Positions 1-19,499 of a stretch of 64,000 bases of DNA are shown in pieces. The notes beneath the pieces were generated by a model. That model was not told the DNA's origin, made no database searches, and was given only the letters and a program-made list of their open reading frames with translations. Location: positions 21,061 to 85,060 of IMG/VR virus record IMGVR_UViG_3300033148_000573, one strand, 5' to 3'. Every line of letters starts with the position of its first letter. Within the stretch, counting starts at the first letter, position 1. The DNA comes from a virus. Both the position numbers and the translations under genes were made by a program.

Positions 1-3000
1 CTTTGATATACATAATTAGAATTAGCATAAAATGCTTCTTCATTTCCGGTTGCTTTAGCCATTGTATATTTGAAACCTCCAACAAAAATCATTTCAAAAG
101 CTTCAGACATTTCACTTACTGATCTTGATGCAGCAATAGGTGAGTTAAACATTTGCTCTACCTGTTCAAACCCTGCAAAAGAAGGCATGAATAAAACAAG
201 TTCCTTATATACTCTATCTGCTTGATATCTTGTTAAATTTTTAAATCTCTTTTCAGTATCACTATCATCATCATCACCAGATAATAAATCATCAAATAGC
301 AAAGAAATAAACATAACACTAAACATGATACCTAAATCACCCATACTTCTATAGAAACCAAATAGTCTATTCTTAGCTCTTTGATCTATGTTACCCCCTC
401 CACCATAATCTCTTGCTTCTCCAAACTTTTCACTAGTATATGCTCTGACTTGTTGGTTTAGGTATTCTTTACCCATTGTTCTAAAGTTCATATTACCTTG
501 AGCCAACTCTTTTCTTGCAAAATTTAAGAATGATAAAGCAGATCTATATCTACCTTCCATCCATCCTAGATTTTCATCAAAGTATTCTCTTTGATACCTT
601 GCTCTAATTGCTGGAGCCAACCACTTTTTAAATTGAATAGCTAATGCACCAAGTGTATGTGACTGAAGAACAATTCTATCTTCCTTGGCATAGTTACCAT
701 GAATTTGTTTGTTAACTTCTCTAATCTCATTTCTAATTTCATATCTTATATCATCATTATAAGCTACTTCTTGTCCATTTCTTTTGATTACTATATCAAA
801 ACCATCTTTAATTTTATTCTTATGTGTTTTTGTATCGTATTCAAATGCATCATAAAATGACAGCTCTTCTCCTGTTTTACTATTTCTAATCATAGTGTCC
901 ATAAGTATAGCCATACCCACTTTGGTCTGTGAATTATATTCAGCAGCATCTTGCATCACGTAACCCCACTCAGTTGCTCTATCAAACCAACTCTTACCAT
1001 CTTCAGTAGCTCTACTTTGTTCACGTATATCAGACATACTATCCATCATTCTGAACATATCAACAAAAGCTTCATACTTACTATTAGGTAATTTTTTATC
1101 ATAGTCAGCTTTAGCTAATCCTGGTATAACACCTAATGTTACTACGTCAAGTAAATCTTCTGCACCACCATGTGCTGTTCTATTGACTAATCCTGGAATA
1201 GCTCTCTTATTAAATTCCCAGGTTGCTCTTTTAAATGCCTTTTGACTATAAAATCTACCACCAATAGATTCAATATTGTTATTTATTCTACCAATCAAGT
1301 AGTTATTAAAGTTACCAAATGGGTTAAACGCTACATATGATAAAGAAGACAACTGAATAAGACCATCTGCAATTTTATCTACAGCACCCTTAGTAATGTT
1401 TTCATTTTCATAATGAATCATAGACATAAACTTCTTTGCTCTACGTACTACATTTTTTTCTTGAGTACTTGTATTAGCTTTAGTACCTAAATTATCTACA
1501 ACTTTATCTTTTACTTTTGCTACTAGATTTAATCTCAATCCAGGAGCAGGAGTATATGTTCTGTTTTCAATTACCTTAACAAAAGCTTTTAAGGTATCAT
1601 CTACAGCGCCCATTGTTTCATAGTTTTGAGCCATTGCACTAAACTTAAGTAAACTAGATGCCATATCTGTGCTAATCTGTCCTCTACTTGGTGTTGCTCT
1701 GAGCCTTACCATTTTACCATTTAATACAGCTATTTGCTTTTTATACTGTTGATCTTGGATTTCATTCTTTTTATACTTTGATTTAAGAAGATCAATTTCT
1801 TTTTGTAAATCAGCCATATCAGTATCAAGCTTAGGTCTACCGGTATAGTAGATAGGCATTTGATCAATAATATAACCCTCATTATCTAGTATAACATTTT
1901 TTTGAGTAGAGGTTTGTTGAAACATATTCCAAGCCCTACTCTCTGTCATACTAGCATATAGCTTGGTAAACAAAGTTCCTTTCTCTTTTACATCAGACAT
2001 CAATCTATTCTGTACTAAAGGAACTCTACCCAACATTTGTGCACTTTGCCCAATAGGTATTTTCTTAAGCAAGTCATTCTCATACATATCTATGTATAAT
2101 TGATAAAACTCCCTTTGGGCTACAGATTTTGCGTCAGTACCGCTCATTATGGCATCATACTTGGCGTTTCTCATATTACGTCCATCAAGGGTAGTTTCTA
2201 GTATTTGTCTATACTCTGCTTTAGGCACCATCATATCTTGACGGTCTTCTATAATTTGTCCTGTTGCCTCTCCCTTTATTCTTACAGCTCTGGTATATTC
2301 AACCGGCTGATAATATTTTGCAACATAAGCTGCATAGTCTGCATCTGAAATATTTTTTTTCTTTTCCCAACTTCCTCTTTGATTAGTTTCAGCACCGGGT
2401 CTCCACACTTCATATTTATTTCTGATATCAATAAACTCTTGGGTGTACTTGTGATACATACCTGAAGGACGTAATGTACCATCATCTCTTTTTTGCTCAG
2501 CCATATAAAAATCTCCATATGCTTTCTTTTTAGCAGCTAGATCTTTATTGTATTCTATATCTTCCTGACTTGCTGTTTCTAAATCATAAACAGGTCTGTA
2601 TTGATATGGTGTACCTTCATTATCATAAAGTTGACTTCTGAGTTCATTTTGTATAGCCCAATATTGTTCTCCTATTTTTGTTACATATCTACCATTAAAA
2701 GTACCGTCTGCATCATACTCTAACATGAATTTATATAACTCGTCAAGTTTTAATTCAGGTGATAACTTTGCAAGCTTTTGTCCAGCCGTTCTTATAAGGT
2801 TTTCTCTTTGAGCCACAAGATCTAATAGCTTTTGATTTTGGGCTTTTCTTATTTTATCCATTGTAGCCAATAGTACATCTGGAGATGTTGCCATATCTTT
2901 AGTTTGATATTCAGTGTCACTGATATCTGCAGCTTTTTCCATCAAAAGCTCTAAGTCTTTTTCAGTATATAAACTATTTTCACCACCAAAATCTCTATTT

Positions 3001-5660
3001 GATTTTAGCCTCACCATTTCTTTAACATAGTCTTTTAGTGCTTCACCTACTATTCCTCCTGTGTCAGTGCCAGCACCACTAAGTAAATTAAGTTGTTGTT
3101 GTAATGATAAAATTAAATTCTTTTGAGTATTATTTAAACCTTTTAAATCTTTAAGTATAAAAAGCCCTTCAAACGTTTTCATATACTTATCAAAGTTTAA
3201 AACATAAGAAACATATTCAGGAGAATTTATATTCTTAGGATTTTCTACATAAGCTCTAAAATCTTTTATTTGAGATAAAGCATCAAGCAAAACTTCAGAC
3301 AAAGCTTTTGATTGGCCTTTAACACTACCAGCCATAGCTAAGTTTATATATGCTATTGTTTTAGATATTTGATCAATTTCATTTTCTTTTGTTGATTCCA
3401 TATATATATTAGACTTCAACAAAGGAATCATATCCCTTTTCTCAATAAGTGCTTTCTGATATGTATCTAGTAAACCAGCTGCAGCATTATATTCATCATA
3501 GTTTTCTGCTGCTTTTTTATCATCTTCAGTTGTTTCCTCTTTCTGGTCTTTACCATTCCATATTTTATTGTATGAACCTTCTTGATCTTTTTCTAATCTA
3601 CTTTTTTGATAGGAGTTTCTTACTTCTGGTACAAGAGCATCTACTAAATTAAGATTTTGACTTACAGGATGAGGGACCCATCTATCAAATTCAATTGATC
3701 CATCAAACACTTGATCAGATCCTGTTCCTTCTATACCAACTTTAAAGTGTATTGTAGAGGTGGCCCATTCATCATAAGATACTTCATACCCCATATTTTC
3801 AGCCATTCTTCTATATACATTAACTTGTAAGTTATGCTGTTGCTCTGTTGATAATTCTTTTGCTAATCCTTGTTGATATAACACTGAGTCTTGTTCTAAG
3901 GCGTAAAATCTTTCTTTATATTGATTTCCTATACGCTTTCCTTTTTTATCATTTAAAGCTACCTCTTTACTTAACTCATTTTTTGTAGTCTTAAGATCCA
4001 TGATGTTAATTCTACCATGTTGATCTATAATAAATACATCTGCAGTACCGGCCATCTTAGAAGCTTCATCAAACAAAACAACTTGAGATAACACAATTGC
4101 ACCTTTCATTTTTAAACTATCCATAATACTAGCAAGAGTATCAAAAGTATCTTTAGCTTTATCTTTAGATATGTTATTTGTCTCTAGTGCAGCATATGCA
4201 TCTTCAAAAGAAAGATTAGCAATAACACCATCTAATAGTGTGTCAACCTCATTACCAATATCCAAGTTAATCTTATGAGCAACTTGTTTATCTGGTGAAA
4301 GTTTTCCTTTTATAGCTGTGGTTACTGATGTATATACTTTATCAGAATCATTAGAATTTATATATGTATGATCTTCTTTATTAAGTGTTACAATTGAATC
4401 TCCAGCAGCTGCATCTTTTACTGACGCTGACAGAGAATCAACAAGACCAGAGTTTTCACTCTGTGCTACATTAAATAGCTGCATTATAATAGGCTTCTGC
4501 GTATCATTAGCTCTTTCTAGTGCATCTTTGATTTGTATTTCTTTAGATGGTGATAAACTATATCTTAATTTACCGTCAACTCTTTTTTCTAGTTTAAACT
4601 GAATACCTTCCGTATTAAGTAGTTTAGCAATATCACTTAGACTTGTACCCGGTTTAATAGCAGATACAGGTAACTCTCTACCAGTAATATATTTATTAAG
4701 GTTTTCAATTACTCCTTTAAACCACTCAAGAAGTTCTTTAACTTTTGCTAGGAATCCTTTTGTAGGTGTTGTTTCATATTCTTTTTTGAAGTGTCTTGAT
4801 AATGCTTGTGTTACAATTTCAAGATCTCTTTCTGTATCTGTAAAATTTCTTGTACTACTATTGTAAGCATCTTCAATTTCTGCTGATAGTTCTGGAAAAT
4901 TATTTACTGCTTCATCAAGAAGTGAGTTAAATAATTCTTCATTCTCCATCTTTACTGCATCTATAAAAGGATGCAACATTTCTTCAATTGCTATTTCATC
5001 TGTGACCCTACCTTTTATTAAGTAAGCTACACCATCCATATAAAAAGAATTTATCTCATTAAAAGGAACGTTATTGGTTTTAGTTTTTGGTAATGATTCA
5101 TACATTACTCTTGCTTGTGCAACAGATAACATTTTAACTTGTATCTGTGGAAACATTCTTTTAAGATGCATAACAACCGCTCTTGATCTATTGGTGTCCC
5201 ATGATCTTGAACTTTCAAGTATATCTCTAGCAGAGAACATATTATTGTTAGGTTCAATCTTATAGCTTTTTGGCGTTCTTGTTACTGTAAATGAATCTTT
5301 TGGTATGTTATTAATTTCTAAGTATCTGTAAAACCTTTTTAGATTACTTTGTAAAAAAGCTTCATCATATGATAATGTCTGAGGATTTGAATTATTAATT
5401 AAAAACTGCCCTGCTAAATTGCTACCTATTCTTTCTCTTCTTAAATTATTGAGCACGCTTTCTCCAAATGCTTTTCTTTTTAATGAGAATGCAATATCTT
5501 GGTCTTTAACCATAGTCTGAGCTTGGACAACACTAGGAAACGCATCAGAATCATTAACACGTTGCCAGTCACTAATAACTTTAGATGTTTTGATATCAGT
5601 ACCATATTCATCCTTTAATGCTTGGTATCCCGGATCATTTCTATTATAACATTTAGCCAT
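1..5660 (-). CDS. Giant virion/cargo-type protein, C-terminally cut by window edge: degenerate zincin site plus PD-(D/E)XK nuclease motif
   Basis: An uninterrupted reading frame starts at 5660 (MAKCYN...) and is still open at the left edge, giving at least 1886 residues. Around residues 226-230 it has EEMLH in a context (predicted strand, then a helix with HPF) that resembles the HExxH helix of zincins, but the first His is Glu, so the site looks inactive. At about residues 400-560 there is a PD-(D/E)XK nuclease pattern: a YTSVTT start, then Asp541 in GTADV, and Asp555-Leu-Lys557 in the motif IMDLKTTK. The rest is long and helical with many charged stretches. It is directly downstream of the 4607-aa RNA polymerase polyprotein (15-bp gap), so the two are probably co-transcribed. 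crAss-like phages are known to have chains of such giant proteins. The nuclease role is inferred from motifs; whether it acts in the virion or in the cell is unknown. Confidence 0.8.
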   Translation of the reverse strand, partial: MAKCYNRNDPGYQALKDEYGTDIKTSKVISDWQRVNDSDAFPSVVQAQTMVKDQDIAFSLKRKAFGESVLNNLRRERIGSNLAGQFLINNSNPQTLSYDEAFLQSNLKRFYRYLEINNIPKDSFTVTRTPKSYKIEPNNNMFSARDILESSRSWDTNRSRAVVMHLKRMFPQIQVKMLSVAQARVMYESLPKTKTNNVPFNEINSFYMDGVAYLIKGRVTDEIAIEEMLHPFIDAVKMENEELFNSLLDEAVNNFPELSAEIEDAYNSSTRNFTDTERDLEIVTQALSRHFKKEYETTPTKGFLAKVKELLEWFKGVIENLNKYITGRELPVSAIKPGTSLSDIAKLLNTEGIQFKLEKRVDGKLRYSLSPSKEIQIKDALERANDTQKPIIMQLFNVAQSENSGLVDSLSASVKDAAAGDSIVTLNKEDHTYINSNDSDKVYTSVTTAIKGKLSPDKQVAHKINLDIGNEVDTLLDGVIANLSFEDAYAALETNNISKDKAKDTFDTLASIMDSLKMKGAIVLSQVVLFDEASKMAGTADVFIIDQHGRINIMDLKTTKNELSKEVALNDKKGKRIGNQYKERFYALEQDSVLYQQGLAKELSTEQQHNLQVNVYRRMAENMGYEVSYDEWATSTIHFKVGIEGTGSDQVFDGSIEFDRWVPHPVSQNLNLVDALVPEVRNSYQKSRLEKDQEGSYNKIWNGKDQKEETTEDDKKAAENYDEYNAAAGLLDTYQKALIEKRDMIPLLKSNIYMESTKENEIDQISKTIAYINLAMAGSVKGQSKALSEVLLDALSQIKDFRAYVENPKNINSPEYVSYVLNFDKYMKTFEGLFILKDLKGLNNTQKNLILSLQQQLNLLSGAGTDTGGIVGEALKDYVKEMVRLKSNRDFGGENSLYTEKDLELLMEKAADISDTEYQTKDMATSPDVLLATMDKIRKAQNQKLLDLVAQRENLIRTAGQKLAKLSPELKLDELYKFMLEYDADGTFNGRYVTKIGEQYWAIQNELRSQLYDNEGTPYQYRPVYDLETASQEDIEYNKDLAAKKKAYGDFYMAEQKRDDGTLRPSGMYHKYTQEFIDIRNKYEVWRPGAETNQRGSWEKKKNISDADYAAYVAKYYQPVEYTRAVRIKGEATGQIIEDRQDMMVPKAEYRQILETTLDGRNMRNAKYDAIMSGTDAKSVAQREFYQLYIDMYENDLLKKIPIGQSAQMLGRVPLVQNRLMSDVKEKGTLFTKLYASMTESRAWNMFQQTSTQKNVILDNEGYIIDQMPIYYTGRPKLDTDMADLQKEIDLLKSKYKKNEIQDQQYKKQIAVLNGKMVRLRATPSRGQISTDMASSLLKFSAMAQNYETMGAVDDTLKAFVKVIENRTYTPAPGLRLNLVAKVKDKVVDNLGTKANTSTQEKNVVRRAKKFMSMIHYENENITKGAVDKIADGLIQLSSLSYVAFNPFGNFNNYLIGRINNNIESIGGRFYSQKAFKRATWEFNKRAIPGLVNRTAHGGAEDLLDVVTLGVIPGLAKADYDKKLPNSKYEAFVDMFRMMDSMSDIREQSRATEDGKSWFDRATEWGYVMQDAAEYNSQTKVGMAILMDTMIRNSKTGEELSFYDAFEYDTKTHKNKIKDGFDIVIKRNGQEVAYNDDIRYEIRNEIREVNKQIHGNYAKEDRIVLQSHTLGALAIQFKKWLAPAIRARYQREYFDENLGWMEGRYRSALSFLNFARKELAQGNMNFRTMGKEYLNQQVRAYTSEKFGEARDYGGGGNIDQRAKNRLFGFYRSMGDLGIMFSVMFISLLFDDLLSGDDDDSDTEKRFKNLTRYQADRVYKELVLFMPSFAGFEQVEQMFNSPIAASRSVSEMSEAFEMIFVGGFKYTMAKATGNEEAFYANSNYVYQ

Positions 5661-5675
5661 TTGATTATTGTTTAA

Positions 5676-8600
5676 TTATATAAGACATTTAAGTCTCTCA
5701 ATTATTTCTTGTTCTCCCTCTTCTGTTTGTGAAAATAAATCACCGTATAAAGCTATTGCATCATCAAGTGTTTTTATATTTTCTCCAGAAAGCTTTTCTA
5801 AAGCAGCACTATTACCTTCTACATTTGCATCCCACCATTCTACTAAACTTGAAGCTTCTGAAATTTCTTCTGAAGCAAAAAGATCAAGTTCTAGTTGTTC
5901 TTGCTCTTGTTGTTCAAGTTCTGTAGCTTCTGGAATGCTCATATCAGTATCTTCTATAATAGCATTTCCTGTCTCATCAAATATAGCACTATCTGTGTTA
6001 GCAGACAACTCAGCCATTATTTTTGCCATATCAGATATATTTGTTTCTGCTGCATCTATATCTGCTTTAACTGTTACAGAATCTGTAGTTTGATTAACTA
6101 TTGCTGAGTCAGAGTTTAATACTTCATTAACTTCTAGTATAGCTCCAAGATTAGTATCAACAGGATACTCAACCTCACTAGTTTGTTGTGCTGGTTGTTC
6201 TAGTTGTGCAGCTCTATCTTGAGGTAAACTATTTTGTGTAGTTCCTTTGCCTACATTTCTTGCTTGATCATATGTAAGTCTAGGTCCTCCTACAAAACCA
6301 CCACCAAATTGTTGATTAGAACCCATAGAAGGAACTTCTAAGTATTCAGTTACCTTTGCATTAGGATTATCTTTAGCAAGCAATCTAAACAAAACATAGA
6401 AATCTCTACCTTGTCTTTCAACTTTAACCCTTACAAACTCTTTTGCATTTACATGTTCAAAACTCTCAGAAGTAATAGTAAACTTATTAGGTCTAGAAAC
6501 TGGGTCAAAAGTAAAGCCTTCATCAAGACTAGAAGCATCATAAGTGACAAGCAATGGTCCTACAACATTAGATTGTAAGTATCCATATTTAAAATCTTTC
6601 ATCACTTCTTCTTTAGAGATACCAAAGACACTTTCAAATTCTACTTGTCCTTTAAGTGCAGCTTCTACAGAACCAACATTCTTAAGATATTTATTCATAA
6701 TAAAAGGACTCATTGCACTCATAAGACTTCCATACTTAAGCTGCAATCCATCTTTAACCATCATGTAATGCAGAATGTCTTCAGCTATTTCTCTTGTCTC
6801 AAGTGAACCATATAGTTTTGCAAAGGATGTTTGTAAATCAAGTTTATTAGATGCATTAAGTCTTCTCCATGTATCCGCTTTTACTAAATTCATTCCTGTG
6901 TTATTACCCTGAGTTCCGGCATATTGAGTACCTACAAAATTATCTAAGAAGTAATTAGGCTCTGCACCTTGTTCAGCTCTTAGCAATTGTAAATCTTCAA
7001 TTTTTTTAATCAATGATAAGTTAGTTGTACCTACAGGACCAGGATAAAGCAATGTGTTTTCTACAGAAGAATTACCAGAGCTATTATTAAGAAGATGTTG
7101 GTATGACTTAATTGTTAAATAAGATAATAGATCTTGTTCAATACCATTTTTTGCTACATTATCAAAACCTCTTGAGTCAACATTCATTTGATTATAAGTA
7201 GGCTCTAGTATATCATTAAAGTCCTGACTCATAGTTAAAATAGTGTTAGGTAAAAGATCATTATGTATTTGACCAAATATTTCTAAATAAGTACTCTGCC
7301 AAGTTTTGCTATTCTTACCATAAATAGGTCTGATATTCATAGGTGCTTCCTTATCAAACAAACTAGTAATTGTCTCAATAGCATCTTTCATTTCTGGTAT
7401 TGAACTAGGTAGACCTTGAGTAAGACTTGTTACTTTATTTATTTTACCTGTAAAGTTTTTAATGTTATTAAGTCTTTCAAATAAAAATAGTATTTGAAGT
7501 CTTTCATTATTAGTTAAATCTTCAGTGCTGTCTACAGCTGTCTCTAAAAACTCATCTGATAGTTTTACAAATGGTGGTTTATTGCCACCTTCTTTTTCCT
7601 TAGCAACTAATGAGGCTAAAGATCCAATACGTTTTGTTAAAAGAGTATCTAAACCTGCATCAAATTTGTCCTCTTTATTTAAAGCTTGATCATACAAGTC
7701 TCTTATTTCAGCAGAATTTACTAATAAAATTGAAGTTCTTAGTGGGATCCCCAATGAAACCATATTACCAACTAAACCAACAGCATGAATATTAAGTCCA
7801 AACTTTGCTATTAAACGTTCTTTAGCATTATCAGTTTCCATTGTTACTAGAGTAGAAATAATATCTTGTATTCTTTCACCATTTATTTTGTCTTTAGTAA
7901 ACCCATCATATGTATTATTATTAAATTTTATAGGTCTAGCTAATTTAATATTGTACTCACGCAATAAACTTAAAGCTAAATTAGGTTTAACAATAGCACC
8001 AATTGCAGCTCCTTTGTTTGCTTCAAAGGCTTTTATCATTCCATGAAGTGTGTCAATATCTACATCAGAATCCTTTCTGCTTGCAAATAATTCTATACCC
8101 TCAACATTAGAAAGCTCATCAAATAAATCCTCTAATATTTTTAAGTCAGCTGCTTGATAAGCAATAGGTAAATCAGACTTACCTTCACCAGCATCTTGAT
8201 CAATAGTCTTTAGTGTTTCACCTGTTACACCAGTATTACCTGCTAATACATATCTATAATCTAAAATGTTATTGTTTAAAACCGCCTCATTAGGTGATCC
8301 AAACTTTTTAGAATATTCTTCAAATTGTTTTTTAGTAACAGGAAGACCCAATATTAACATTGCTCTAAGAGCTTCTTCTGATATACTGTTTACACCTTGT
8401 TTATCTGTAACTCTATTTTGTTCAGAATCACTCAAAGAGTTTTCCCTTCTAATAGCCAAGGTTTCCTCCTTGTATAAAGAAGATGATGTACTATAAATAT
8501 TATTAGGTTCAGAAGCTTTTTGATTCATGTACTTTATATACTCAAAATAAGAATTACCAGAACCGTAAGCTTTAAATTCTTTATTGCTATCTAAATAGTA

Positions 8601-11600
8601 CTCTTTTGCCAATGCATATACTTTATCAATATCAAAATCCGCTCCTGATATTTCTACAAGTTCTTTTGGAAATATAGCTGTTGAACCATAATATACAGGC
8701 ATAAAATCAACAACTCTTATGTTTACAGCTGAATGTTTATCTTGTGTTGGTATACGTACTCCAAACAACTTGGCTACTGCATCTGGTATTGAAGCATTTG
8801 AATTTTCTTGAATTAACTCCATTACATTTCTATCCATAGGAGGCATAATAGTTTCACTATATCTTACTCCTGTAGGCTCCCCATTTACAACATCATCATT
8901 TTGGTATTCCATAACCCCTGTTCTAAGAACATCAAGAACAAGAATGCCATCATGTTTACCATCAACAAGATCATTTATATTTTCTAGGCTCTCTCCATTA
9001 TAAGAACTTTCTCTTACAATCTCAGATCTAATAGGCATACCGTTTTTCATTTCATATACACGTCTGTAAACCTTATGACCAAATGAAGATAGTAATGCAA
9101 CTGAAGTACCAGGTACTTTTTCTCTTAGTGTGCCTTTGCTAAAATAAGTCAAGAAAAGTTGTTCAAACTTTTTAGCTGTTACCGGACTGTTTAAATTATA
9201 CTTTTGAACACCATCTTCAACTCCAAAGAACTCAAGTAAGTTTGATGCAGCTCCTGAAGCCATAAGACCTTTTTGTGCTTCTAATAAAAATGCAGCAAGA
9301 TTTGGGGTAATGGCTCCTTTTTCTTTTGATAATTCTAACTCATCAAGTGCCGTGTCAAAACTAAATACTAAATTTCTTTTGTTTTTGTATTTTAAAGTTA
9401 CTCTTTCTCCTACTGCTTTGTTGTATGCGTCTCTTACTTTTCCTACAGTATTTAACTCAGGGCTTCCTTCTATAGTAATTTCTACATCATCACTTTGTTC
9501 AGAAGTTATAAGCTCCTTGATTTGGTTCATATCAGTTACTATAATCTTGTTAGAAGGGTTTACAACTTGAAGACCCAAGTAAGATGTGTCTAAATTAATA
9601 GATTGCAAATCTTGTGTTGTATCAAATACATTTGACTCAAGTAAATTAATCCCCTGTTTTAGCATTTTTATTGCTGAAACTGGAGCCGCCATTGCAAAGT
9701 TTTTATTTGCTTCTTCATTAGCTTCCATTTGTTCACGTAAATAATGAAGCTGTTGCATGTTAGGTTTAGCCTCCCACGTACCTGTTTTTTGATTATAGTT
9801 GGATGTATACTCTTTTGTTAAAACGGTAACTGACATTTTTAAAGCAGTTTTACCATCCATATATACAAACTTCTTAGAGTTTATAAAGTCCTGTTGCTTT
9901 GCTAAATTAATAGAGTTTTCAGCAGAACCCCATGCTCTATCAGCATTTATAGACTCACCCTTATCAATGCTATCTAGCATACTTGCCATTGCAGGACTTA
10001 ATCTACCAAATGCAAAAGTAGAATATCTTATACCTTTTGTAGTAATATAAACTTGAGCATCTGCTAATTCAATATCATTACCTGTAAAATCAGACTTAGC
10101 TGTTGGATCTTGGAAAGGATATAAATCAAAATTAGTACTAGAATGAGTAATACCTTTATTAAGATCCGTAATTTCACTATAGGCACTATAGTATGCGGCA
10201 TTCTGTAGTTTTGCTCTTTTAACTTTATCAACCATGTCTTTTAAAGATACAGCTTGATCACCAAGCAGTAAATCATTCATTGACTTAGAATTGATATAGT
10301 TGTTAAAAAATATTTGTTTTAAGTTATATGCTGAATCATTTGTAAGATTTAACTTAAGTTGTGATAATTCAACAGCACCTCTAGAAACACCAGATGCAAT
10401 AGTTAATCCGTTTAATACTTGCGTAGAAAGATTATCTTTTGCTTTTAATGATGTAATCACATCATCAAATTCTTTAAAGCTTTGCTCTAAGCTTTTATTA
10501 ACTTCTGATCTAATAGATGCATTTGTTACACCTACAGCTAGTGACACAGCTTGTTTAAAAGAAACCGTCTCTCCTTGTTTAGCTTTATCAATAGCAACTT
10601 GTATTAATGCTTTTTTGGTTGATTCAGAAAGCAATAATCCATTATTAGTAAATTTGAATGCTCTGCCTTTATCAGACCTATCACTTTTTTCATTATTAAA
10701 TCCTTGAATATCACCAGGTGCATTTTCAAATGCTAATGTTTCTTTGCTAATTCTATCAAACTCAGCCTCTATGCTATTTATAAATACATTAATAGCTTCT
10801 GGTGTAAGAACAACATTACCGTTAACTTCAGTAACTGCTTTAATAACAGGCAAACTTGTTAGGTCTCCAGTGTTAGCTGCTTCCATTACTCTTAAAAATA
10901 CAGGAGCCATTGCAACTTGTTGGCCGCCTTTTCCTTCTACAGTTTCAACTCTACCCGTTCTTCTGTTAAAATTAGAAACATAGTTGTTTATAATAGCTAT
11001 AGCAAACTCTTGTGGCGTAAACTCTCCAAAACTTTGTGTTGATTTATTTTTTGATATAGATTCATTTAATATATCTTCAACAGCTTGATCATTTTCAGCG
11101 TTTGTAATTTGCTCTTTAATTTTACTACCAGCAACTCTTATTACTTTTAGTCTATTCTGATCAGATAAGTTTAAAAATGCTTCACTATTAAGCAAATAAT
11201 TATTTGATAAAAAGTCTTCACTTTTTAATTGTTCAATTTTAGATCTGTTATTTAATGACCCAATGCTTTTTAAATGATATGTAGGTAATTGATGAGCATA
11301 TACAATATCACCATTAGGATTTATAAATGTTGATGATCCAATTGTTTCATCAAATGCAGCATTAGAAATACTAAGCTTAGTAAGTCTTGATGCCATACCA
11401 TCCTGTTTAGTGGAATATATATTTGCATTTGTACTAAACCCAGAATATAATTGATCTAATAAATCATTTGTTATTGGTTCCTCTGTATATCCATCTGACA
11501 ATGCTTTTAATTCAGGACTGTTTTTTAAGTCAGCTTCTGTTTTAGATTTAGCAATACTATATGCAATGTAGTTAGGGCTTAATCTAATACCTATTAGATC

Positions 11601-14600
11601 AAACATGCGTTGAGAAAACTCTCTAGACATTTGATATGCTAAAGATGTTGACTCTGGATATGAAGTCATTGCCTCTTTCATATCTTTAGTAAGGCTTAAG
11701 AATTGCTTTAATCTCTTAGGGTTAGCTGCAGCAAGTTTTCTTTTTGTTATGTATGCTTGAGCCCATTCATCTAACTGAGCATTAATATCATCTCTTTCAG
11801 ATGCAGTATATACTAATAAGTTACCATTACCATCTCTTTCATTAAATAGATAATCAACCTTGTAGTTTTCAAATCCTTTTAATATTGATATCAATAATGA
11901 ACCATCTTTAACATCTTTAAATGGTTGCTCTGATGTTAGACCTTCTATTGTTAATCCCGTATCATTAAATAATTTATCTACAACCGCCTTACCTTGTGGA
12001 TTTAATCTAGAATATGCATACATTCTTTTAAGCATAACTACAGGATCACTTTCATTTGAAACTGATTTTAATAAGCTAGTATATGCTTCTTGAAATTTAA
12101 CAGGAACAATCAATGCTTCACCCTCAGTTAATTCTGTCTTACCAAAGAAGTCAGTATCAACCATTGTTGTAGTAGCTATATATGATCTTACTTTATATGA
12201 TAAAGAGTTAAAACCACCTATCTCTGCTGCATCTTTATTAAAGTCACTTGTACTTCTTATACCTGAAGTCTCTTCAACATTTTCTATTTTTAATTGATTA
12301 GCCTGATCCATATCAGAAATAACATTAATCAAAGCAAACACTTCTTTTTTAATGTCTTCAGGATAATTTATAAATGCCATATCAATTTGTTCAAGATATG
12401 CTTTCTTTGTTCCAGAAAAACCTTTGTTGGCTTCTCCCTCTGGATCAAGCATAATCATGAAATCTGTTTCAAGATCATTATATACTTTTGTAGGGTTATA
12501 TGACTTCTCAGTTAATGATAATTCATTTACTCTATTTATAAACATACCAGCCATAGATCTAATTAAAGGATCTATTACATCTGAGTCAACATATAGCTCT
12601 CCTGCAGGCTCACCATTTTCTACAGCTTTAGATGCTGTGTCATATCTAACTAATGCATTGGCAATACTAAACGCACCGCTTAAAGAGTCATCAAGTTGTG
12701 TAAATTCATTAAGTTGTACAGGGGCATTTTTAAATTTACCTGAATCTATATTTTCATATAACGTTAGTAACTCTGTAGAAGAGTACTTAGAAAATACAGC
12801 TTTAATCCACTCTATTAACTTAGTAAAAAATGATTTTATTTCTGTATCTATTTTTGAGCTTCTTGGATTCATTTTGAATGCATCAAATTCATCCGCCATA
12901 TATTCTTCAGCAAACTCATTTTCTAACTCAAGTTGAGACATTTCTTTATATTGCTCAGCTGAATTCTTAAACTTTTCTAATTCTATTTTATACTTAGATC
13001 CATACTTGGCTTTTAATTCTTTTTTAGCAATGCTTCTATATCTATCAATCTGCCCTTGAGTAAGAACTGTTCTAAATATACTATGGAATGCCTCATGGTA
13101 TTTATAAGGGCTTAATGGGCTTGTATATATAATACCGTTTACATCTACTCCATTAGCTACCCTATCTAAATTTAATACAAAAGAACCTACTCTTTCATAT
13201 CCTTTAGAAATACCATTGTCAGCAAGAACCAAAAGATCTTCTACACCAATTATATCTGGTAAATTATCATTAGCCCAATCTAAAAACTCATTGTAGTCTT
13301 CTATACGCTCTACTTCTGATGTTGCTTGTACTAGCTTATTAGCTCCTCTTTCTAGTTTTTTTCTTTTAGCTAATAAATCTTGGTACTCCTTGCTTTCTTT
13401 AATAGCTTTTATTTTATCCTTCTTGGTAGTTAGGCCTTCTTCTAGCTTCTGCTTTAAAGCACTAAGCTCATTTTTTACACTATCAAGAGTAGTTTCTTTT
13501 TCTGATTTTTCTACAGCTAGTGCACCGGCTCCTCCACCTTTAATCACCATAAGGTTAACTAACTGTTTAAAGTTTGAGTCTTTCATTAACTCTTTTTCTC
13601 TTTCAGTTAATTCAATCCCTCTGAGTATTGCATTAGAAATGTGATCAATATTTTCTTGATATTCTCCAAAGTTATTATTAGATACATCATCTACCATTTT
13701 ATCAAACTCAGCTTCTTCCATATCAGATACGGAATCCTCTGCTTCTGCAGATGTAGGTCTATCTCTACCTACTGCTGATTCCATTTCTAACTCATTGCTT
13801 TTATCTGTATTAGGAATATATGCAATATCACGTGATAATTGTATAGAATCTGATGAAGCAGAAACTTCTGCTGTTTGATTTTTTACTACTTGTGGTAAAA
13901 CTTCAGTAGTACTATTTTCATATATTACATCAGGAGATACACCTGTTGCAAAAGATTTTCTAAAGTTTTTATTTTTTAATCCTGCATTTAAATCATCTAC
14001 TGTTTTATCTTGATTATACTTTGCAAGTAAGTCTTCAAATACATCTTTAGCAAACTCTTTTGCTTCAACTTCTTCTGGTTTTAGACCAACATTTAAACTT
14101 GTTTTAGTGCTTGTATTATCTAAAGAAATAAAAATAGATCCGTCAGGTCCTACATTTAACTCTATTAAGTTACCCGAATAACTACTTAAAAACAATCTTT
14201 CATTTAATTCTGCATTATACTTTGCAGCTTCTTCCATACTTTTTTCTGAATCTTTTATAGCACCTATTCTTTTAGCTGCCTCAACTACATCTACATATAA
14301 TTCTTGTAATTCAGTATTAGTATATTCAACCGGTTTTAAATTTACTTTTGCGTATGTACCATTTGGCAACCTAACCATAGCTAGATATCTGTCAGTACCC
14401 TTTCCTGCATCCAGTAAGTTATCCCACTGATTCTGCATTCTAAGTTGTTGCTCTATTGCTTCTTCTAAAGCCTCTCTTTCTTTACCTTTTAAATTAGTAG
14501 TAAAGTCATAAATTCTTTTACCTGTCTCTTTATCATATTTTAAATCAAATACAAATAAGTTACCTTCTTGATCTGCTGTATTGTACTGCAATGCATCCAT

Positions 14601-17600
14601 TGATATAGGATAAACCGTTTCTCTAGATTTAGCATATGCAACTTGACCACCCCCGGCTACTAAGTTTATATTAAAAGGAAGCTCCTTAGAGTCTGCCATA
14701 AAATATGAAGGCTCACTACCTATATTTAAATTATCAAATGTTTGTACAATTAATGCATTTATTGCAAACGCTCTGTGCACTTTCTCTAGTGCTTCAGCTT
14801 TTTGTTCTTTGTTTAATCCTTTTTCTGCTAGTATAACATTGCTTGCTTGTTCTCTAGTCATAGATCTAGGATCTATAGGACTGTTTGTACGTTGATCTCT
14901 AATTAAAAAAGATTCATTGTTTATATAAGCAAAAATTCCTTCCTCACTATTGGATGGTTCAATGCCCATCTCAACTAGTTTTATGTTAATACTATCACGT
15001 AAATCAGATGTAGCTGCTCTTATACCAATGACGTATTTACTTACTAATCTATCTATTAATGGGTTTGCTTCTTTATATATTTCACCATCTCTATTTTTAG
15101 CAACATAAGCACCTGTATTGTTACCGCCATCAGAAGTTCTCATAACAACCAATTGCAATCCTGCTATTTCTTCAGGAGAAAGCAAACTAAGAATAGCATT
15201 ATATCTTTCTATTGCTTTAGCATTATCAGTACCCACACCACCTTCAGTATAGTTTACATGAGGATAGAATGAAGTTAAATCTTTTAATTGAATCTTAGTT
15301 ACTGTATCCGGAATCAAGTTAAATGTAGTTTCTTCTAAAGTAAACTTGCCATTAAACTCACCTTGTGGAATAAACAAAAACTTTCTTTCTGAAATAGGAC
15401 CTGTATTATCAGATTCTTTAATTACTTTAAGCTTTTGATTTTCTCCATACTTTTTAGAAAACCTTGGATCTTGAACAACTATATATTTTACACCATCTTT
15501 GTATACTATTTGTCCATATGTTAATCCATCAACACCATCAAAACTAAATGGAGTTGTGGAGTCTACTAGATTTGCATTCAAAGATTCTAATGCTTGTTTA
15601 GCTGTTTTACCTTGTCCAGATAAAAATACTCCTTGTACTGATTTAAAATTTGTATCTATAAAGTCTAAGATATCATCTGATAACTCATTCCCTTTTTTAT
15701 CCAGGAGTTTATACATTTCAACAATTTCTCCTGTTTGGTTATCTACTACTGATATCTTATATATATCTGCAGTAACACCTTCTTTATAGAAAACTCTTTG
15801 AGGTGTATCTTCTAGCGCTTGCCCTTCTTCTAAACTAACATCCTTACTTTCAACAATATCAGACATTTCAACACCTGATTGATTTAGTATTGATGTTATA
15901 ACAGGGTTGTTAATTAAAACTTCAGGGTCTTGTAGAAACTCTTCAAATCCGGTATCATTTTTTATTACATCTTTTTCAAGCGGATTGATAAACTCTAATA
16001 TGCCCTCAACATTTACTTCAGGTTTTCCTGATGCCCAAACCTTTTTTATAGCATTAACAACATTTCTAATATTCACTGCTTCTGCAGTATTCATCCATTC
16101 AGTGCTATCTAAAATAGGCTGTCCTAATCTTGCTTGTTTTGCTCTATATTTATTATAACTTCTTTTTAAAGCATTGACTAATAAAGGGCTATTAACACTT
16201 ACATCAATTTTAATATCTATTCCCGCTTTATCTAAAAGCATATCTAGTGCAGATCTAGTTTCTTCACTTTCTTCAATAGATATTTCTTCTTCTGTTTTTA
16301 CTTCTTCAGGTTGAGTGCTTTCTGCTCTAGTTTCTTTATAAACGTTTAGGTGACTTTGAATTTGTTTAAATAATACTGAATGTACTTCTGGTACAACCTT
16401 ACCATTATCATCATAGAAGTCCTGTAAAAATGTTACATTACCTGTTTCCAAAAACATTTTTGTTTGTGAAATAGCCGGGTATACGCCCATTTTACCTAAC
16501 TGATTTATTAATTCATTTGCCTCAACAATACTTACATACTGCTTTAACATTGCTTCAGTTATCTTAGAACGCTGATTATAAATCTCTTTGTTTACTTCGT
16601 ATTGTCTTTGTTGAATCTCAGAAAACTTTTCTGGATTTTGCATGTATTGAATAGCTTTATCATATACACGTGCTCTTCCTTTTAAAGCACCGTAGTCAAC
16701 AATTTGCTCAAGAGCTGCATCTATTTTTGATTCATCAGCAAATGTACCAGCAGCAGATGCCATGAATCTTACATAGTTTCTAAATTCAGTTCTAAGCTTT
16801 CCTTTTAAAAGTTTGTTTCTTTTAAAGGTTCCATTCTTAAATCTATTCTTTGGATCAGTAATGATTTTTTGAATGGCTTTTAGTCTTTTTATTTTTTCTT
16901 TTTTTGTTTTATTAGATTCTCCAATACCTTTATCTGAACCTTCAGTTGCAATAATCTCAAGGTTAAGCATATCTATTTCATTCTGAATTGATTTTTCATC
17001 AAGCAAGTTTGTTATATCATTTGCTGACATTTTATCAAATAGCGGATCAGATTGTAATTTAGTGTAGATACTATCTGCTCTTTCTAATGCTCTTGTAAAT
17101 CCATCATTAGTAAACATATATAAATAACGCACATGTTCATATGCTTCTTCATTTAACATTTCTCTAATGTATTCTCTTTGTTGAGTCTTAGGATTAAATT
17201 TATTTTTGTTAAAAGGGTTTTTATATTTATCCTTGTTTAAATTATAAGACTCCTCCATCTTATCAATACCCACAAGCATATCATTAATACGTCCTCTTAG
17301 CTTACCATCTTTTTTATCTTTATTAGATACGCCTGGAAATGCTTGAGCTAACTCTTCATCTGTTAATTCTAAAAACCCTCTTAATTGATCTTTAAAGTGT
17401 TGTGACCCATTACCAGCAAACATTGTATAGTATTGTTGGAATTTAGCTCTATCAGCACTATCAACAAAATTAAATATATCAAGAGCACCCTTTATGTTTT
17501 CAGCTGCTTCTTTCTGAATCATAAAGTTTAATCTGTTTACATCAAATAAACTAGAAGGATCTATTGCTTGCGCATCCCAAGATTTATTATATGATTCTAC

Positions 17601-19499
17601 AACTTTTTGAATCATATTTTCTCTATTAGTCTTGTACTCTGTATATGCTTCCTTTTGAGACTTAGTTGCTAAACCTATACCTGCTTCCTGAAGACCATAG
17701 TTATATATAGAAGGTATACCTTGAAAGAATAACTTTTGAGGACCTTGCACTAAACCACCCATTAAAAAACCAGATAAAAACACACCTGCTCCCTCAGATG
17801 AAAACTGATCACCCATTGCTGATAGTATCATTTGATTTTTAAGTGCTTCACCACCTTGAGCTGGATTGTTAAGTACTTCTGTATAGTAACCTACTGTTGC
17901 TGCAGAAATAGCTTCCTGTCCAATTTCTTGTATACCTTCAGCAACATTGGCTGCAAAATAATCAAGCATAGCTATACCACCCGAACCAACAATACCTTTA
18001 AAACCTCCTGCTTTAACTTTTGCTAAAGTGTTTTTGAATCCACCACTTACATATTTAAATGGGCTTTTAATTACTTCACCTGCACCATTGATAACTTTTT
18101 TACCTGCGGTGTTAACAATATTTTTATTTATGCCTTTCTGAAATGTAGAACCCAAAGTCCTTTGTATTCCTCTTTGAAAACCACCCATAGCATTACCAAT
18201 AACAAACCAGTTACTAGCATATATAAGAGGTGCATTACCCAATAATGTTTTAAATGCAGCTTGATTAGCAGCATTAGATACATCTCTACCATCAGTAATA
18301 CCTTGTCCGCCACTAAAGTTATTAGCATCTGTAAGACCTTGCTTAAGAACCTTGTTGTAAACCATACCTGATTCCAATTTACTTTCAGCCATTGCTAAAT
18401 TTACAGCTCTAAGATCTCTATAGAAACCACCAAAGCCAGAACTCATTTTAGCAAGATTAGTCATGTTTTGCCCAGCATTTTGTGCTGTCTTCATGTTTTG
18501 GAATGCTTTTACTGTGTTTGGTGTAAACCCTTTTCCTAATGTATTAATCACCATTTTTCCACCTGTAACAGAAGCATTATAAAAATCTCTTGCTGTTTCA
18601 AGCTGTTTTGCTTTTTGAAGTATCTTTCTTGTTCTATCAAACAGTTTGCTAAAACTGTATATAGCTTTTCCTGCTTTAGCAACATTTGCAACAGTTTTTG
18701 CACCAGCAGCTGGAGCAAGGGTACCTCCAGATAAACCAGAAATACCAGCTAGGATAATTTCTTCAACAACAATAGAACTTAATATACCAAATGTATATGC
18801 AGAGTTAGCTGCTAAATTATTAAAGAAAGCACCAGCACCTCCTCTGGTTGATGAAGCAATTCCCATGGTATCTTCAAACTCAGTTGCAGATTCAAAATCA
18901 GGAGCTAAGTAATCTCCTCCTGTAGCAAACTCATATACAGAGTTTAAACCAGTGCCAGCAAGAGACATCCATTGACCTCTCATTCTAGCCATGTCATCCC
19001 AGATAGTAGAGTTTGCATTATAAAAGTTTTCCATATTAGAATATGGTGTATAACCTAACTTATCAAATTCAGGATGATTATAATATCTCAAAAATTGACC
19101 CTGCCTCATACCAGAAAAAACAGGAGTTATCTTGCTATCAACAAATGGTTTTGGATCTAAAGTTAATACGTTCTTAACTTTTGTATAGTCATTTTCTTTA
19201 GGTATATCTTGAGTTATTGGATTATATGTATCAGTTGCAAAACTAGGTACACCAACTCCTAATGAAGCCATAGCACCTATACCATACTTATCTATATCTG
19301 CTTTATATTCATTAACACCGGAAATATCATCTGCTGCTAAACCACTACTTAGCAAATAGTCATTAAAGTTTTCTTCAGGAGTTTCAAACATTTCTGCCAT
19401 AGGCTCAAAGCGGAACTGCCCTTCAGGTATAATGCTTGGGGCAGGTCTTTCTTGATTTCTAATCTCTTGCTGTAATGGCTTGTTAGATTCGTTTTCCAT
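5676..19499 (-). CDS. 4607-aa giant polyprotein with zincin motif and DxDxD virion RNA polymerase
   Basis: This is a single 4607-residue frame. Residues 3621-3625 are DFDID inside SGADFDIDKVYA. That is the metal-binding DxDxD loop of the double-psi beta-barrel RNA polymerase described for crAss-like phage phi14:2 gp66 (compare NADFDGD of cellular RNA polymerase). Residues 2135-2139 are HEAFH, followed about 60 residues later by a Glu-rich helix (NEFAEEYMA) that could give the third zinc ligand, as in gluzincins. The N-terminal ~600 residues hold two hydrophobic Gly/Ala-rich stretches (about 230-280 and 560-585), as expected for an ejected, membrane-interacting protein. The C-terminal ~200 residues are acidic and Gln/Glu-rich. 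phi14:2 gp66 is about 2200 aa, so here the polymerase appears fused behind an ejection-type and a protease-type module. It probably enters the host with the DNA and transcribes early genes. Self-processing by the zincin is inference. Confidence 0.85.
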   Translation of the reverse strand: MENESNKPLQQEIRNQERPAPSIIPEGQFRFEPMAEMFETPEENFNDYLLSSGLAADDISGVNEYKADIDKYGIGAMASLGVGVPSFATDTYNPITQDIPKENDYTKVKNVLTLDPKPFVDSKITPVFSGMRQGQFLRYYNHPEFDKLGYTPYSNMENFYNANSTIWDDMARMRGQWMSLAGTGLNSVYEFATGGDYLAPDFESATEFEDTMGIASSTRGGAGAFFNNLAANSAYTFGILSSIVVEEIILAGISGLSGGTLAPAAGAKTVANVAKAGKAIYSFSKLFDRTRKILQKAKQLETARDFYNASVTGGKMVINTLGKGFTPNTVKAFQNMKTAQNAGQNMTNLAKMSSGFGGFYRDLRAVNLAMAESKLESGMVYNKVLKQGLTDANNFSGGQGITDGRDVSNAANQAAFKTLLGNAPLIYASNWFVIGNAMGGFQRGIQRTLGSTFQKGINKNIVNTAGKKVINGAGEVIKSPFKYVSGGFKNTLAKVKAGGFKGIVGSGGIAMLDYFAANVAEGIQEIGQEAISAATVGYYTEVLNNPAQGGEALKNQMILSAMGDQFSSEGAGVFLSGFLMGGLVQGPQKLFFQGIPSIYNYGLQEAGIGLATKSQKEAYTEYKTNRENMIQKVVESYNKSWDAQAIDPSSLFDVNRLNFMIQKEAAENIKGALDIFNFVDSADRAKFQQYYTMFAGNGSQHFKDQLRGFLELTDEELAQAFPGVSNKDKKDGKLRGRINDMLVGIDKMEESYNLNKDKYKNPFNKNKFNPKTQQREYIREMLNEEAYEHVRYLYMFTNDGFTRALERADSIYTKLQSDPLFDKMSANDITNLLDEKSIQNEIDMLNLEIIATEGSDKGIGESNKTKKEKIKRLKAIQKIITDPKNRFKNGTFKRNKLLKGKLRTEFRNYVRFMASAAGTFADESKIDAALEQIVDYGALKGRARVYDKAIQYMQNPEKFSEIQQRQYEVNKEIYNQRSKITEAMLKQYVSIVEANELINQLGKMGVYPAISQTKMFLETGNVTFLQDFYDDNGKVVPEVHSVLFKQIQSHLNVYKETRAESTQPEEVKTEEEISIEESEETRSALDMLLDKAGIDIKIDVSVNSPLLVNALKRSYNKYRAKQARLGQPILDSTEWMNTAEAVNIRNVVNAIKKVWASGKPEVNVEGILEFINPLEKDVIKNDTGFEEFLQDPEVLINNPVITSILNQSGVEMSDIVESKDVSLEEGQALEDTPQRVFYKEGVTADIYKISVVDNQTGEIVEMYKLLDKKGNELSDDILDFIDTNFKSVQGVFLSGQGKTAKQALESLNANLVDSTTPFSFDGVDGLTYGQIVYKDGVKYIVVQDPRFSKKYGENQKLKVIKESDNTGPISERKFLFIPQGEFNGKFTLEETTFNLIPDTVTKIQLKDLTSFYPHVNYTEGGVGTDNAKAIERYNAILSLLSPEEIAGLQLVVMRTSDGGNNTGAYVAKNRDGEIYKEANPLIDRLVSKYVIGIRAATSDLRDSINIKLVEMGIEPSNSEEGIFAYINNESFLIRDQRTNSPIDPRSMTREQASNVILAEKGLNKEQKAEALEKVHRAFAINALIVQTFDNLNIGSEPSYFMADSKELPFNINLVAGGGQVAYAKSRETVYPISMDALQYNTADQEGNLFVFDLKYDKETGKRIYDFTTNLKGKEREALEEAIEQQLRMQNQWDNLLDAGKGTDRYLAMVRLPNGTYAKVNLKPVEYTNTELQELYVDVVEAAKRIGAIKDSEKSMEEAAKYNAELNERLFLSSYSGNLIELNVGPDGSIFISLDNTSTKTSLNVGLKPEEVEAKEFAKDVFEDLLAKYNQDKTVDDLNAGLKNKNFRKSFATGVSPDVIYENSTTEVLPQVVKNQTAEVSASSDSIQLSRDIAYIPNTDKSNELEMESAVGRDRPTSAEAEDSVSDMEEAEFDKMVDDVSNNNFGEYQENIDHISNAILRGIELTEREKELMKDSNFKQLVNLMVIKGGGAGALAVEKSEKETTLDSVKNELSALKQKLEEGLTTKKDKIKAIKESKEYQDLLAKRKKLERGANKLVQATSEVERIEDYNEFLDWANDNLPDIIGVEDLLVLADNGISKGYERVGSFVLNLDRVANGVDVNGIIYTSPLSPYKYHEAFHSIFRTVLTQGQIDRYRSIAKKELKAKYGSKYKIELEKFKNSAEQYKEMSQLELENEFAEEYMADEFDAFKMNPRSSKIDTEIKSFFTKLIEWIKAVFSKYSSTELLTLYENIDSGKFKNAPVQLNEFTQLDDSLSGAFSIANALVRYDTASKAVENGEPAGELYVDSDVIDPLIRSMAGMFINRVNELSLTEKSYNPTKVYNDLETDFMIMLDPEGEANKGFSGTKKAYLEQIDMAFINYPEDIKKEVFALINVISDMDQANQLKIENVEETSGIRSTSDFNKDAAEIGGFNSLSYKVRSYIATTTMVDTDFFGKTELTEGEALIVPVKFQEAYTSLLKSVSNESDPVVMLKRMYAYSRLNPQGKAVVDKLFNDTGLTIEGLTSEQPFKDVKDGSLLISILKGFENYKVDYLFNERDGNGNLLVYTASERDDINAQLDEWAQAYITKRKLAAANPKRLKQFLSLTKDMKEAMTSYPESTSLAYQMSREFSQRMFDLIGIRLSPNYIAYSIAKSKTEADLKNSPELKALSDGYTEEPITNDLLDQLYSGFSTNANIYSTKQDGMASRLTKLSISNAAFDETIGSSTFINPNGDIVYAHQLPTYHLKSIGSLNNRSKIEQLKSEDFLSNNYLLNSEAFLNLSDQNRLKVIRVAGSKIKEQITNAENDQAVEDILNESISKNKSTQSFGEFTPQEFAIAIINNYVSNFNRRTGRVETVEGKGGQQVAMAPVFLRVMEAANTGDLTSLPVIKAVTEVNGNVVLTPEAINVFINSIEAEFDRISKETLAFENAPGDIQGFNNEKSDRSDKGRAFKFTNNGLLLSESTKKALIQVAIDKAKQGETVSFKQAVSLAVGVTNASIRSEVNKSLEQSFKEFDDVITSLKAKDNLSTQVLNGLTIASGVSRGAVELSQLKLNLTNDSAYNLKQIFFNNYINSKSMNDLLLGDQAVSLKDMVDKVKRAKLQNAAYYSAYSEITDLNKGITHSSTNFDLYPFQDPTAKSDFTGNDIELADAQVYITTKGIRYSTFAFGRLSPAMASMLDSIDKGESINADRAWGSAENSINLAKQQDFINSKKFVYMDGKTALKMSVTVLTKEYTSNYNQKTGTWEAKPNMQQLHYLREQMEANEEANKNFAMAAPVSAIKMLKQGINLLESNVFDTTQDLQSINLDTSYLGLQVVNPSNKIIVTDMNQIKELITSEQSDDVEITIEGSPELNTVGKVRDAYNKAVGERVTLKYKNKRNLVFSFDTALDELELSKEKGAITPNLAAFLLEAQKGLMASGAASNLLEFFGVEDGVQKYNLNSPVTAKKFEQLFLTYFSKGTLREKVPGTSVALLSSFGHKVYRRVYEMKNGMPIRSEIVRESSYNGESLENINDLVDGKHDGILVLDVLRTGVMEYQNDDVVNGEPTGVRYSETIMPPMDRNVMELIQENSNASIPDAVAKLFGVRIPTQDKHSAVNIRVVDFMPVYYGSTAIFPKELVEISGADFDIDKVYALAKEYYLDSNKEFKAYGSGNSYFEYIKYMNQKASEPNNIYSTSSSLYKEETLAIRRENSLSDSEQNRVTDKQGVNSISEEALRAMLILGLPVTKKQFEEYSKKFGSPNEAVLNNNILDYRYVLAGNTGVTGETLKTIDQDAGEGKSDLPIAYQAADLKILEDLFDELSNVEGIELFASRKDSDVDIDTLHGMIKAFEANKGAAIGAIVKPNLALSLLREYNIKLARPIKFNNNTYDGFTKDKINGERIQDIISTLVTMETDNAKERLIAKFGLNIHAVGLVGNMVSLGIPLRTSILLVNSAEIRDLYDQALNKEDKFDAGLDTLLTKRIGSLASLVAKEKEGGNKPPFVKLSDEFLETAVDSTEDLTNNERLQILFLFERLNNIKNFTGKINKVTSLTQGLPSSIPEMKDAIETITSLFDKEAPMNIRPIYGKNSKTWQSTYLEIFGQIHNDLLPNTILTMSQDFNDILEPTYNQMNVDSRGFDNVAKNGIEQDLLSYLTIKSYQHLLNNSSGNSSVENTLLYPGPVGTTNLSLIKKIEDLQLLRAEQGAEPNYFLDNFVGTQYAGTQGNNTGMNLVKADTWRRLNASNKLDLQTSFAKLYGSLETREIAEDILHYMMVKDGLQLKYGSLMSAMSPFIMNKYLKNVGSVEAALKGQVEFESVFGISKEEVMKDFKYGYLQSNVVGPLLVTYDASSLDEGFTFDPVSRPNKFTITSESFEHVNAKEFVRVKVERQGRDFYVLFRLLAKDNPNAKVTEYLEVPSMGSNQQFGGGFVGGPRLTYDQARNVGKGTTQNSLPQDRAAQLEQPAQQTSEVEYPVDTNLGAILEVNEVLNSDSAIVNQTTDSVTVKADIDAAETNISDMAKIMAELSANTDSAIFDETGNAIIEDTDMSIPEATELEQQEQEQLELDLFASEEISEASSLVEWWDANVEGNSAALEKLSGENIKTLDDAIALYGDLFSQTEEGEQEIIERLKCLI

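Follow-up and report, generated by a model that had tools for sequence, protein, structure and literature searches.

Background

Presence of an RNA polymerase in the virion, and its part in early transcription, are known for the crAss-like phages phi14:2 and crAss001 (PMC10136315, PMC10172136). In phi14:2 the polymerase, gp66 (PDB 6VR4; Phi14:2_gp077 in the record), is a separate protein of 2180 aa; the protein encoded upstream has no HExxH motif, and the HExxH of the block lies in gp076. Virions of crAss001 (Steigviridae) hold gp47, gp49 and gp50 (PMC10172136) as three separate proteins, with gp49 and gp50 encoded on the opposite strand; the channel-type cargo proteins of this phage are thought to be gp45 and gp46 (PMC10172136). 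In crAssphage (Intestiviridae), gp45 is recorded as 'putative RNAP associated protein fused to zincin protease' and gp44 as an RNAP catalytic subunit.

The N4 virion RNA polymerase (vRNAP) of the Schitoviridae is likewise joined to a zincin-type HExxH domain, C1, and to other large domains (PMC5512222, PMC12633501), although it is an unrelated polymerase of the T7 type. In N4-type vRNAPs a fused zincin domain is always present, the zincin region is needed for encapsidation, and Iyer et al. offer autoproteolysis or host-directed proteolysis as options for these zincins (PMC5512222). Thermus phage P23-45 gp96 is a 5002-aa virion protein that holds a DPBB virion RNAP and also a metallopeptidase domain (PMC10770324), but there the polymerase is N-terminal and part of the tail tape-measure protein of a long-tailed phage.

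Here a locus is described from a 64,000-nucleotide stretch of the IMG/VR virus record IMGVR_UViG_3300033148_000573 (hereafter the window), in which the counterparts of crAss001 gp47 and gp50 occur in one reading frame.

Results

Organisation of the 4607-residue chain

The first-pass annotation of the window had described one uninterrupted reading frame of 4607 aa with HEAFH at residues 2135-2139 and DFDID at residues 3621-3625, and this was borne out on the minus strand. The features of the locus are as follows, modules A, B and C being named for their counterparts in other crAss-like phages.

5676..19499, minus strand: single ORF of 4607 aa (ATG start, no internal stop), a gp47-like cargo module with a zincin-type domain plus a virion RNA polymerase (A+B)
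12714..19499, minus strand: module A, residues 1-2262, homologous to the crAss001 gp47-type virion cargo protein
12714..13382, minus strand: zincin-type domain, residues 2040-2262, among the most conserved parts of the chain
13083..13097, minus strand: HEAFH, residues 2135-2139, from motif scan and conservation
12903..12908, minus strand: invariant Glu pair E2198-E2199 in EEY[ML]ADxF, candidate third zinc ligand
12600..12713, minus strand: residues 2263-2300, a gappy and poorly conserved linker that joins the zincin-type domain to the polymerase module
6300..12602, minus strand: module B, virion RNA polymerase, residues ~2300-4400, from profile alignments to gp50 and gp66
8625..8639, minus strand: DFDID catalytic Asp triad, residues 3621-3625, from the motif and alignment with 6VR4
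1..5660, minus strand, extending 117 nt past the low end of the window (L003:2943-8720): module C, the next gene, 1925 aa, from gp49 homology
4971..4985, minus strand: EEMLH, residues 226-230 of module C, a degenerate HExxH (EE[MIV]LH in 63/63 distinct homologues)

HEAFH is the sole HExxH in the chain. By chance, a chain of this composition would hold 0.009 HExxH and 0.003 DFDID motifs. The generic pattern DxDxD is expected about 1.1 times and occurs twice (DFDID at 3621, DSDVD at 3810), so that this pattern by itself is no evidence. The motifs were taken as real because of their conservation and homology: none of 59 distinct homologues above 4250 aa in length departs from H-E-x-F-H, from E2198/E2199 or from the three catalytic Asp residues (59/59 invariant), and all five HEAFH codons vary synonymously. 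The whole chain found no useful match in PHROGs, in Pfam or, as a single sequence, in the PDB, and was therefore identified through its relatives.

The C-terminal half belongs to the phi14:2 gp66 family

With residues 2600-4100 as the query, tblastn hit 111 phage records. Most of them are crAss-like, some bear the annotation RNAP catalytic subunit, and the best matches fall around residues 3400-3660. A family profile built from 17 fused homologues placed residues 2385-4397 against Steigviridae gp50 (E=3e-26) and residues 2877-4105 against residues 665-1837 of phi14:2 gp66, DFDID included (E=6e-21), and matched crAssphage gp44 (E=1e-27). In the PDB, the polymerase profile had one convincing match, 6VR4 (E=2.9e-25), which aligns over two colinear segments, DFDID among the aligned residues. 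Homology to gp66 thus extends across the catalytic core with the DFD[IV]D triad in register, and the assignment of residues ~2300-4400 to the crAss-type virion RNA polymerases, which had been proposed from DFDID, is well supported by these alignments.

The AlphaFold model of the RNAP region was weak (mean pLDDT 61.5, pTM 0.38), with low pLDDT around DFDID. A structural comparison with gp66 had been suggested for this region: Foldseek returned 6VR4 as the one significant match (E=6e-18), but double-psi beta-barrels were not visible in the low-pLDDT model. The presence of two such barrels in the chain is putative.

The N-terminal half resembles the gp47 cargo protein

No phage matched residues 1-2000 in tblastn, and the link to gp47 surfaced by profiles alone. 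Local profile matches to the crAss001 gp47-type protein were found at residues 126-189, 506-721 (with a larger profile) and 2066-2261. Module A is also colinear with a 1552-aa protein of Leptolyngbya phage Lbo-JY46 at residues 362-762 and, weakly, at 1526-1887 (E=2e-4). Since the polymerase profile finds no vRNAP in Lbo-JY46, module A may stand without a polymerase. The N-terminal and zincin-region homology, together with a position between channel-type cargo genes and the RNAP, is that of Crassvirales gp47-type cargo, and sequence comparison supports the correspondence of residues ~1-2262 to crAss001 gp47, a virion cargo protein with a C-terminal HEAFH domain. The chain had earlier been read as an ejection module, a protease and a polymerase in one polypeptide. 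The polymerase and the zincin-type motif stand, while the N-terminal ~2000 residues are gp47-like cargo and not a channel of the gp45/gp46 type; the likely counterparts of gp45/gp46 are, by position alone, the genes upstream of the chain. The hydrophobic, ejection-like segments that had been described at the N-terminus are weak, amounting to a single marginal stretch (residues 238-256, KD 1.76) that reaches 1.6 in only 32/59 homologues.

The zincin-type domain

The profile of 17 homologues relates residues 2066-2260 to the C-terminal end of Steigviridae gp47 (E=3e-10). In crAss001 the copy of the domain is located in gp47 itself. The crAssphage counterpart gave a weak SprT-like match (E=0.01) and is too diverged for a profile match to the window domain. 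Conservation over residues 2100-2250 is among the highest in the chain, also where relatives share 22-30% identity. In the model of the region (mean pLDDT 56), the HExxH and E2198/E2199 both lie on well-formed predicted helices (pLDDT about 75-94; about 80 for the Glu helix), and the strand region falls below pLDDT 50. An HExxH followed by a candidate zinc-ligand Glu on the next helix is the predicted motif of a zincin-like metallopeptidase, and the downstream Glu helix that had been noted beside HEAFH in the polymerase frame is upheld by this prediction and by the invariance of the pair. The invariance of HExxH and of the Glu pair in 59/59 homologues argues for kept metal binding or catalysis.

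Profile searches for zincins on the HEAFH region, an earlier recommendation, found no family or structure matching at significance in Pfam, PHROGs or the PDB; a fold search with the low-pLDDT model returned no match, and no homology to the HExxH domain of the N4 vRNAP was detected by profile comparison. The AlphaFold models being poor, neither the zincin fold nor the double-psi barrels are seen directly.

Fusion states differ between lineages

Module C matched Steigviridae gp49 (E=1e-29), the C-terminal part of crAssphage gp44 (E=1.5e-15) and phi14:2 gp076 (E=8e-12). Judged by homology, the 4607-aa chain is gp47 and gp50 in one polypeptide with the equivalent of gp49 as the next gene: its two halves align with the C-terminal HEAFH domain of gp47 and with gp50, both proven virion proteins of crAss001 (PMC10172136). 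A search of viral_contigs gave the best 80 of 311 encoding stretches. Among 78 IMG/VR loci, A and B share a single ORF (4.4-5.1 kaa) that carries both motifs in nearly all complete cases, and C (~1.9 kaa) comes next. Two apparently split ORFs were rejected as natural: one (L033) has a 79-nt deletion relative to the near-identical intact L037, and the other (L053) a small rearrangement relative to the near-identical intact L051. From these comparisons the A+B fusion is real and old.

The same single-ORF fusion of A and B, with C separate, occurs in five published Suoliviridae (cr50_1, cr125_1, cr1_1, cr60_1 and cr113_1). It is thus not unique to the window clade, nor as unusual as the first-pass annotation had implied. 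The giant Suoliviridae ORF (cr50_1 QOR58058.1, 4774 aa; cr125_1 YP_010113174.1, 4502 aa) has the order of the window chain: a cargo part, HEAFH or HEAWH with a downstream Glu, and DFD[IV]D ~1440-1540 residues further on. A separate gp49-like gene comes next, and the profile match covers residues 2074-3678 at low identity. The Suoliviridae differ in that some members read TAG as an amino acid and in forming a separate clade on the RNAP tree. Elsewhere, A is separate with B and C fused (Intestiviridae), A is separate with B and C on the opposite strand (Steigviridae), or all three are separate (phi14:2). Chains of all three modules were found at 5143 aa in a Zeaxanthinibacter contig and at 5.2-5.6 kaa in five other loci (L221, L224, L228, L243 and L248). 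The modules, their homology, the conserved fusion and the motif are all established here by sequence comparison.

In a tree of the RNAP core, which contains long branches, the window and 31 relatives formed one clade (100/100) that grouped with none of the Steigviridae, Intestiviridae or Suoliviridae. The clade is one of deep, uncultivated, mostly environmental crAss-like phages, the window being from a marine or environmental one, and a well-supported relative of known systems, not a new kind of system. The major capsid protein (MCP; window 62458-63987, minus strand) is nearest to that of Lbo-JY46 (29%), then to csAssE-Sib (epsilon crAss) and phi17:2, in none of which did the polymerase profile find a vRNAP; the MCP thus sides with these three phages, whereas the vRNAP block matches Crassvirales.

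The Zeaxanthinibacter sp. PT1 contig (1.61 Mb) carries the 5143-aa ORF joining A, B and C at L159:3902-19333. A distant MCP-like ORF lies ~27 kb upstream of it, with more window-like ORFs nearby, and an integrase domain was found at about 997 kb of the contig. The locus resembles a crAss-like provirus residing in a marine flavobacterium.

Two places for a zincin-type site

The site in module C reads EE[MIV]LH in all 63 distinct proteins of the window clade and EEFAH in Steigviridae gp49; the Lbo-JY46 homologue has an intact HEFMH (region E=1.3e-12). Across lineages the zincin-type domain is found at the C-end of A, within AB or at the N-end of B, and a possibly related HExxH at the N-end of C. 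Under a strict distance rule, 137 loci covering both places divide into 78 with the A-type HExxH only, 26 with the C-type only, 11 with both and 22 with neither; these counts come from related loci and so lack independence, and several of the 'neither' class have a C-type motif outside the distance limits. The C-type motifs were found by pattern and distance, with mutual homology confirmed solely for the window clade and Lbo-JY46. Four of the 11 double loci pair a chance HExxH with a dead EExLH, which leaves at least seven true doubles. Six loci (L202, L206, L207, L227, L239 and L240) have one HExxH upstream of the polymerase and one in or beyond the module C region. A rule of exactly one intact zincin per block was rejected in view of the doubles and of several empty cases, and holds as a tendency only.

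As a tentative reading, these phages may carry a string of three modules (cargo with zincin, polymerase, gp49-like) whose boundaries are freely redrawn, from three separate proteins through either pairwise fusion to a single chain, and in which one intact zincin tends to survive at one or other of two places, the second site being lost or a dead EExxH. Selection would then act on a zincin function of the whole block, not on cis-cleavage of the polymerase.

Discussion

The comparisons are probably best explained by a cargo-polymerase chain that is packaged and ejected together, with a zincin-type domain serving in packaging or entry or in proteolysis in trans. The gene would encode the virion-packaged RNA polymerase of a deep crAss-like clade, in which gp47, with its C-terminal zincin-type domain, and the two-barrel polymerase gp50, separate in crAss001, appear joined in one polypeptide. 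By analogy with the phi14:2 and crAss001 homologues, the chain would be packaged in the capsid and pass through the tail into the host in a partly unfolded state, either together with the DNA or before it; its C-terminal half would then transcribe early genes independently of the host RNAP. Fusion would set a 1:1 stoichiometry and bring cargo and polymerase in together. The zincin-type domain most likely either serves in packaging or entry or is an injected peptidase whose targets are host or virion proteins. For the window clade we infer the virion location, ejection and transcriptional role, as well as any activity of the zincin.

It had been proposed earlier that the chain is possibly self-cleaved after entry or during assembly. 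In such a polyprotein the zincin-type domain would cut near the 2263-2300 linker, at either stage, so that the gp50-like polymerase is freed from a gp47-like cargo protein. The domain does lie at the exact border of A and B, ahead of a variable and gappy linker, but no conserved cleavage site was seen there in the homologue alignment. A cut in the linker would recreate the two separate proteins of the Steigviridae; these phages, however, keep the domain even though gp47 and gp50 are encoded apart, one on each strand. While the catalytic-type residues are invariant in the 59 homologues, phi14:2 and its relatives have no HExxH in module A and carry one in C instead, the Zeaxanthinibacter provirus chain shows the same pattern, and the chains of 5.5 kaa in L221, L224, L228 and L243 lack any HExxH. 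For the zincins of phage polyvalent proteins, Iyer et al. (2017) suggest autoproteolysis, with the processing of P1 DdrB as a cited case (PMC5512222), yet the N4 vRNAP is packaged unprocessed (PMC5512222), and the crAss001 virion gel bands of 150, 270 and >300 kDa fit, in our reading, uncut gp49, gp47 and gp50 (PMC6235969, PMC10172136). The comparison between lineages thus speaks against the self-cleavage model: gp47 is a separate virion protein in crAss001, several vRNAPs have no HExxH, and the earlier proposal is unsupported. We regard self-processing as improbable, and its obligatory form as a minority hypothesis that nothing seen here requires. Internal initiation as a means of freeing the polymerase was rejected, since Met 2316 and Met 2319 are present in only 31 and 36 of the 59 homologues, respectively, and no internal start is conserved.

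Two other views concern what the domain does within a co-ejected chain. It is possible, if short of probable, that it is an injected peptidase acting in trans on host or virion proteins, independently of the polymerase. Such a role is consistent with its changing position among lineages (reaching perhaps to the N-end of C), with the excess of loci having only one type of site beside the fixed EExLH of the window clade, and with zincins being the commonest domain of injected polyvalent proteins (PMC5512222); the doubles, the loci with neither site, the relatedness of the loci and the narrow range over which C-type homology is confirmed count against it. That the domain is mainly structural, a zincin-derived packaging or RNAP-docking element whose catalysis is secondary or lost in some lineages, is similarly possible but no more probable; the invariance of HExxH and the Glu pair points instead to kept metal binding or catalysis. 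This second view draws on N4, where the region with the HExxH domain is required to encapsidate a vRNAP that stays uncut (PMC5512222) and where C1 forms part of a compact CTD beside the polymerase (PMC12633501). In addition, L228 has a region matching the zincin-type domain without HExxH, and a degenerate EExxH is kept in module C of the window clade and in Steigviridae gp49.

These comparisons carry the crAss-like virion RNA polymerase into a deep environmental clade, dozens of whose relatives occur among public viral contigs. They also show cargo, zincin-type domain and polymerase to be modules whose fusion state differs by lineage. Linkage to a metallopeptidase-like domain appears as a recurrent theme among the unrelated virion RNAPs of the N4, P23-45 and crAss types.

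Other large proteins in the window

A 2027-aa protein (28860-34943, minus strand) contains an SLT transglycosylase, LysM and a YkuD L,D-transpeptidase, with HEVGH nearer its N-terminus, and is a candidate multi-enzyme wall-degrading virion protein. Stretches resembling von Willebrand A (DxSxS...) were seen by eye in a muzzle/stabilization-like protein (34943-41230, minus strand) and in a tail-region protein (45423-47669, minus strand).
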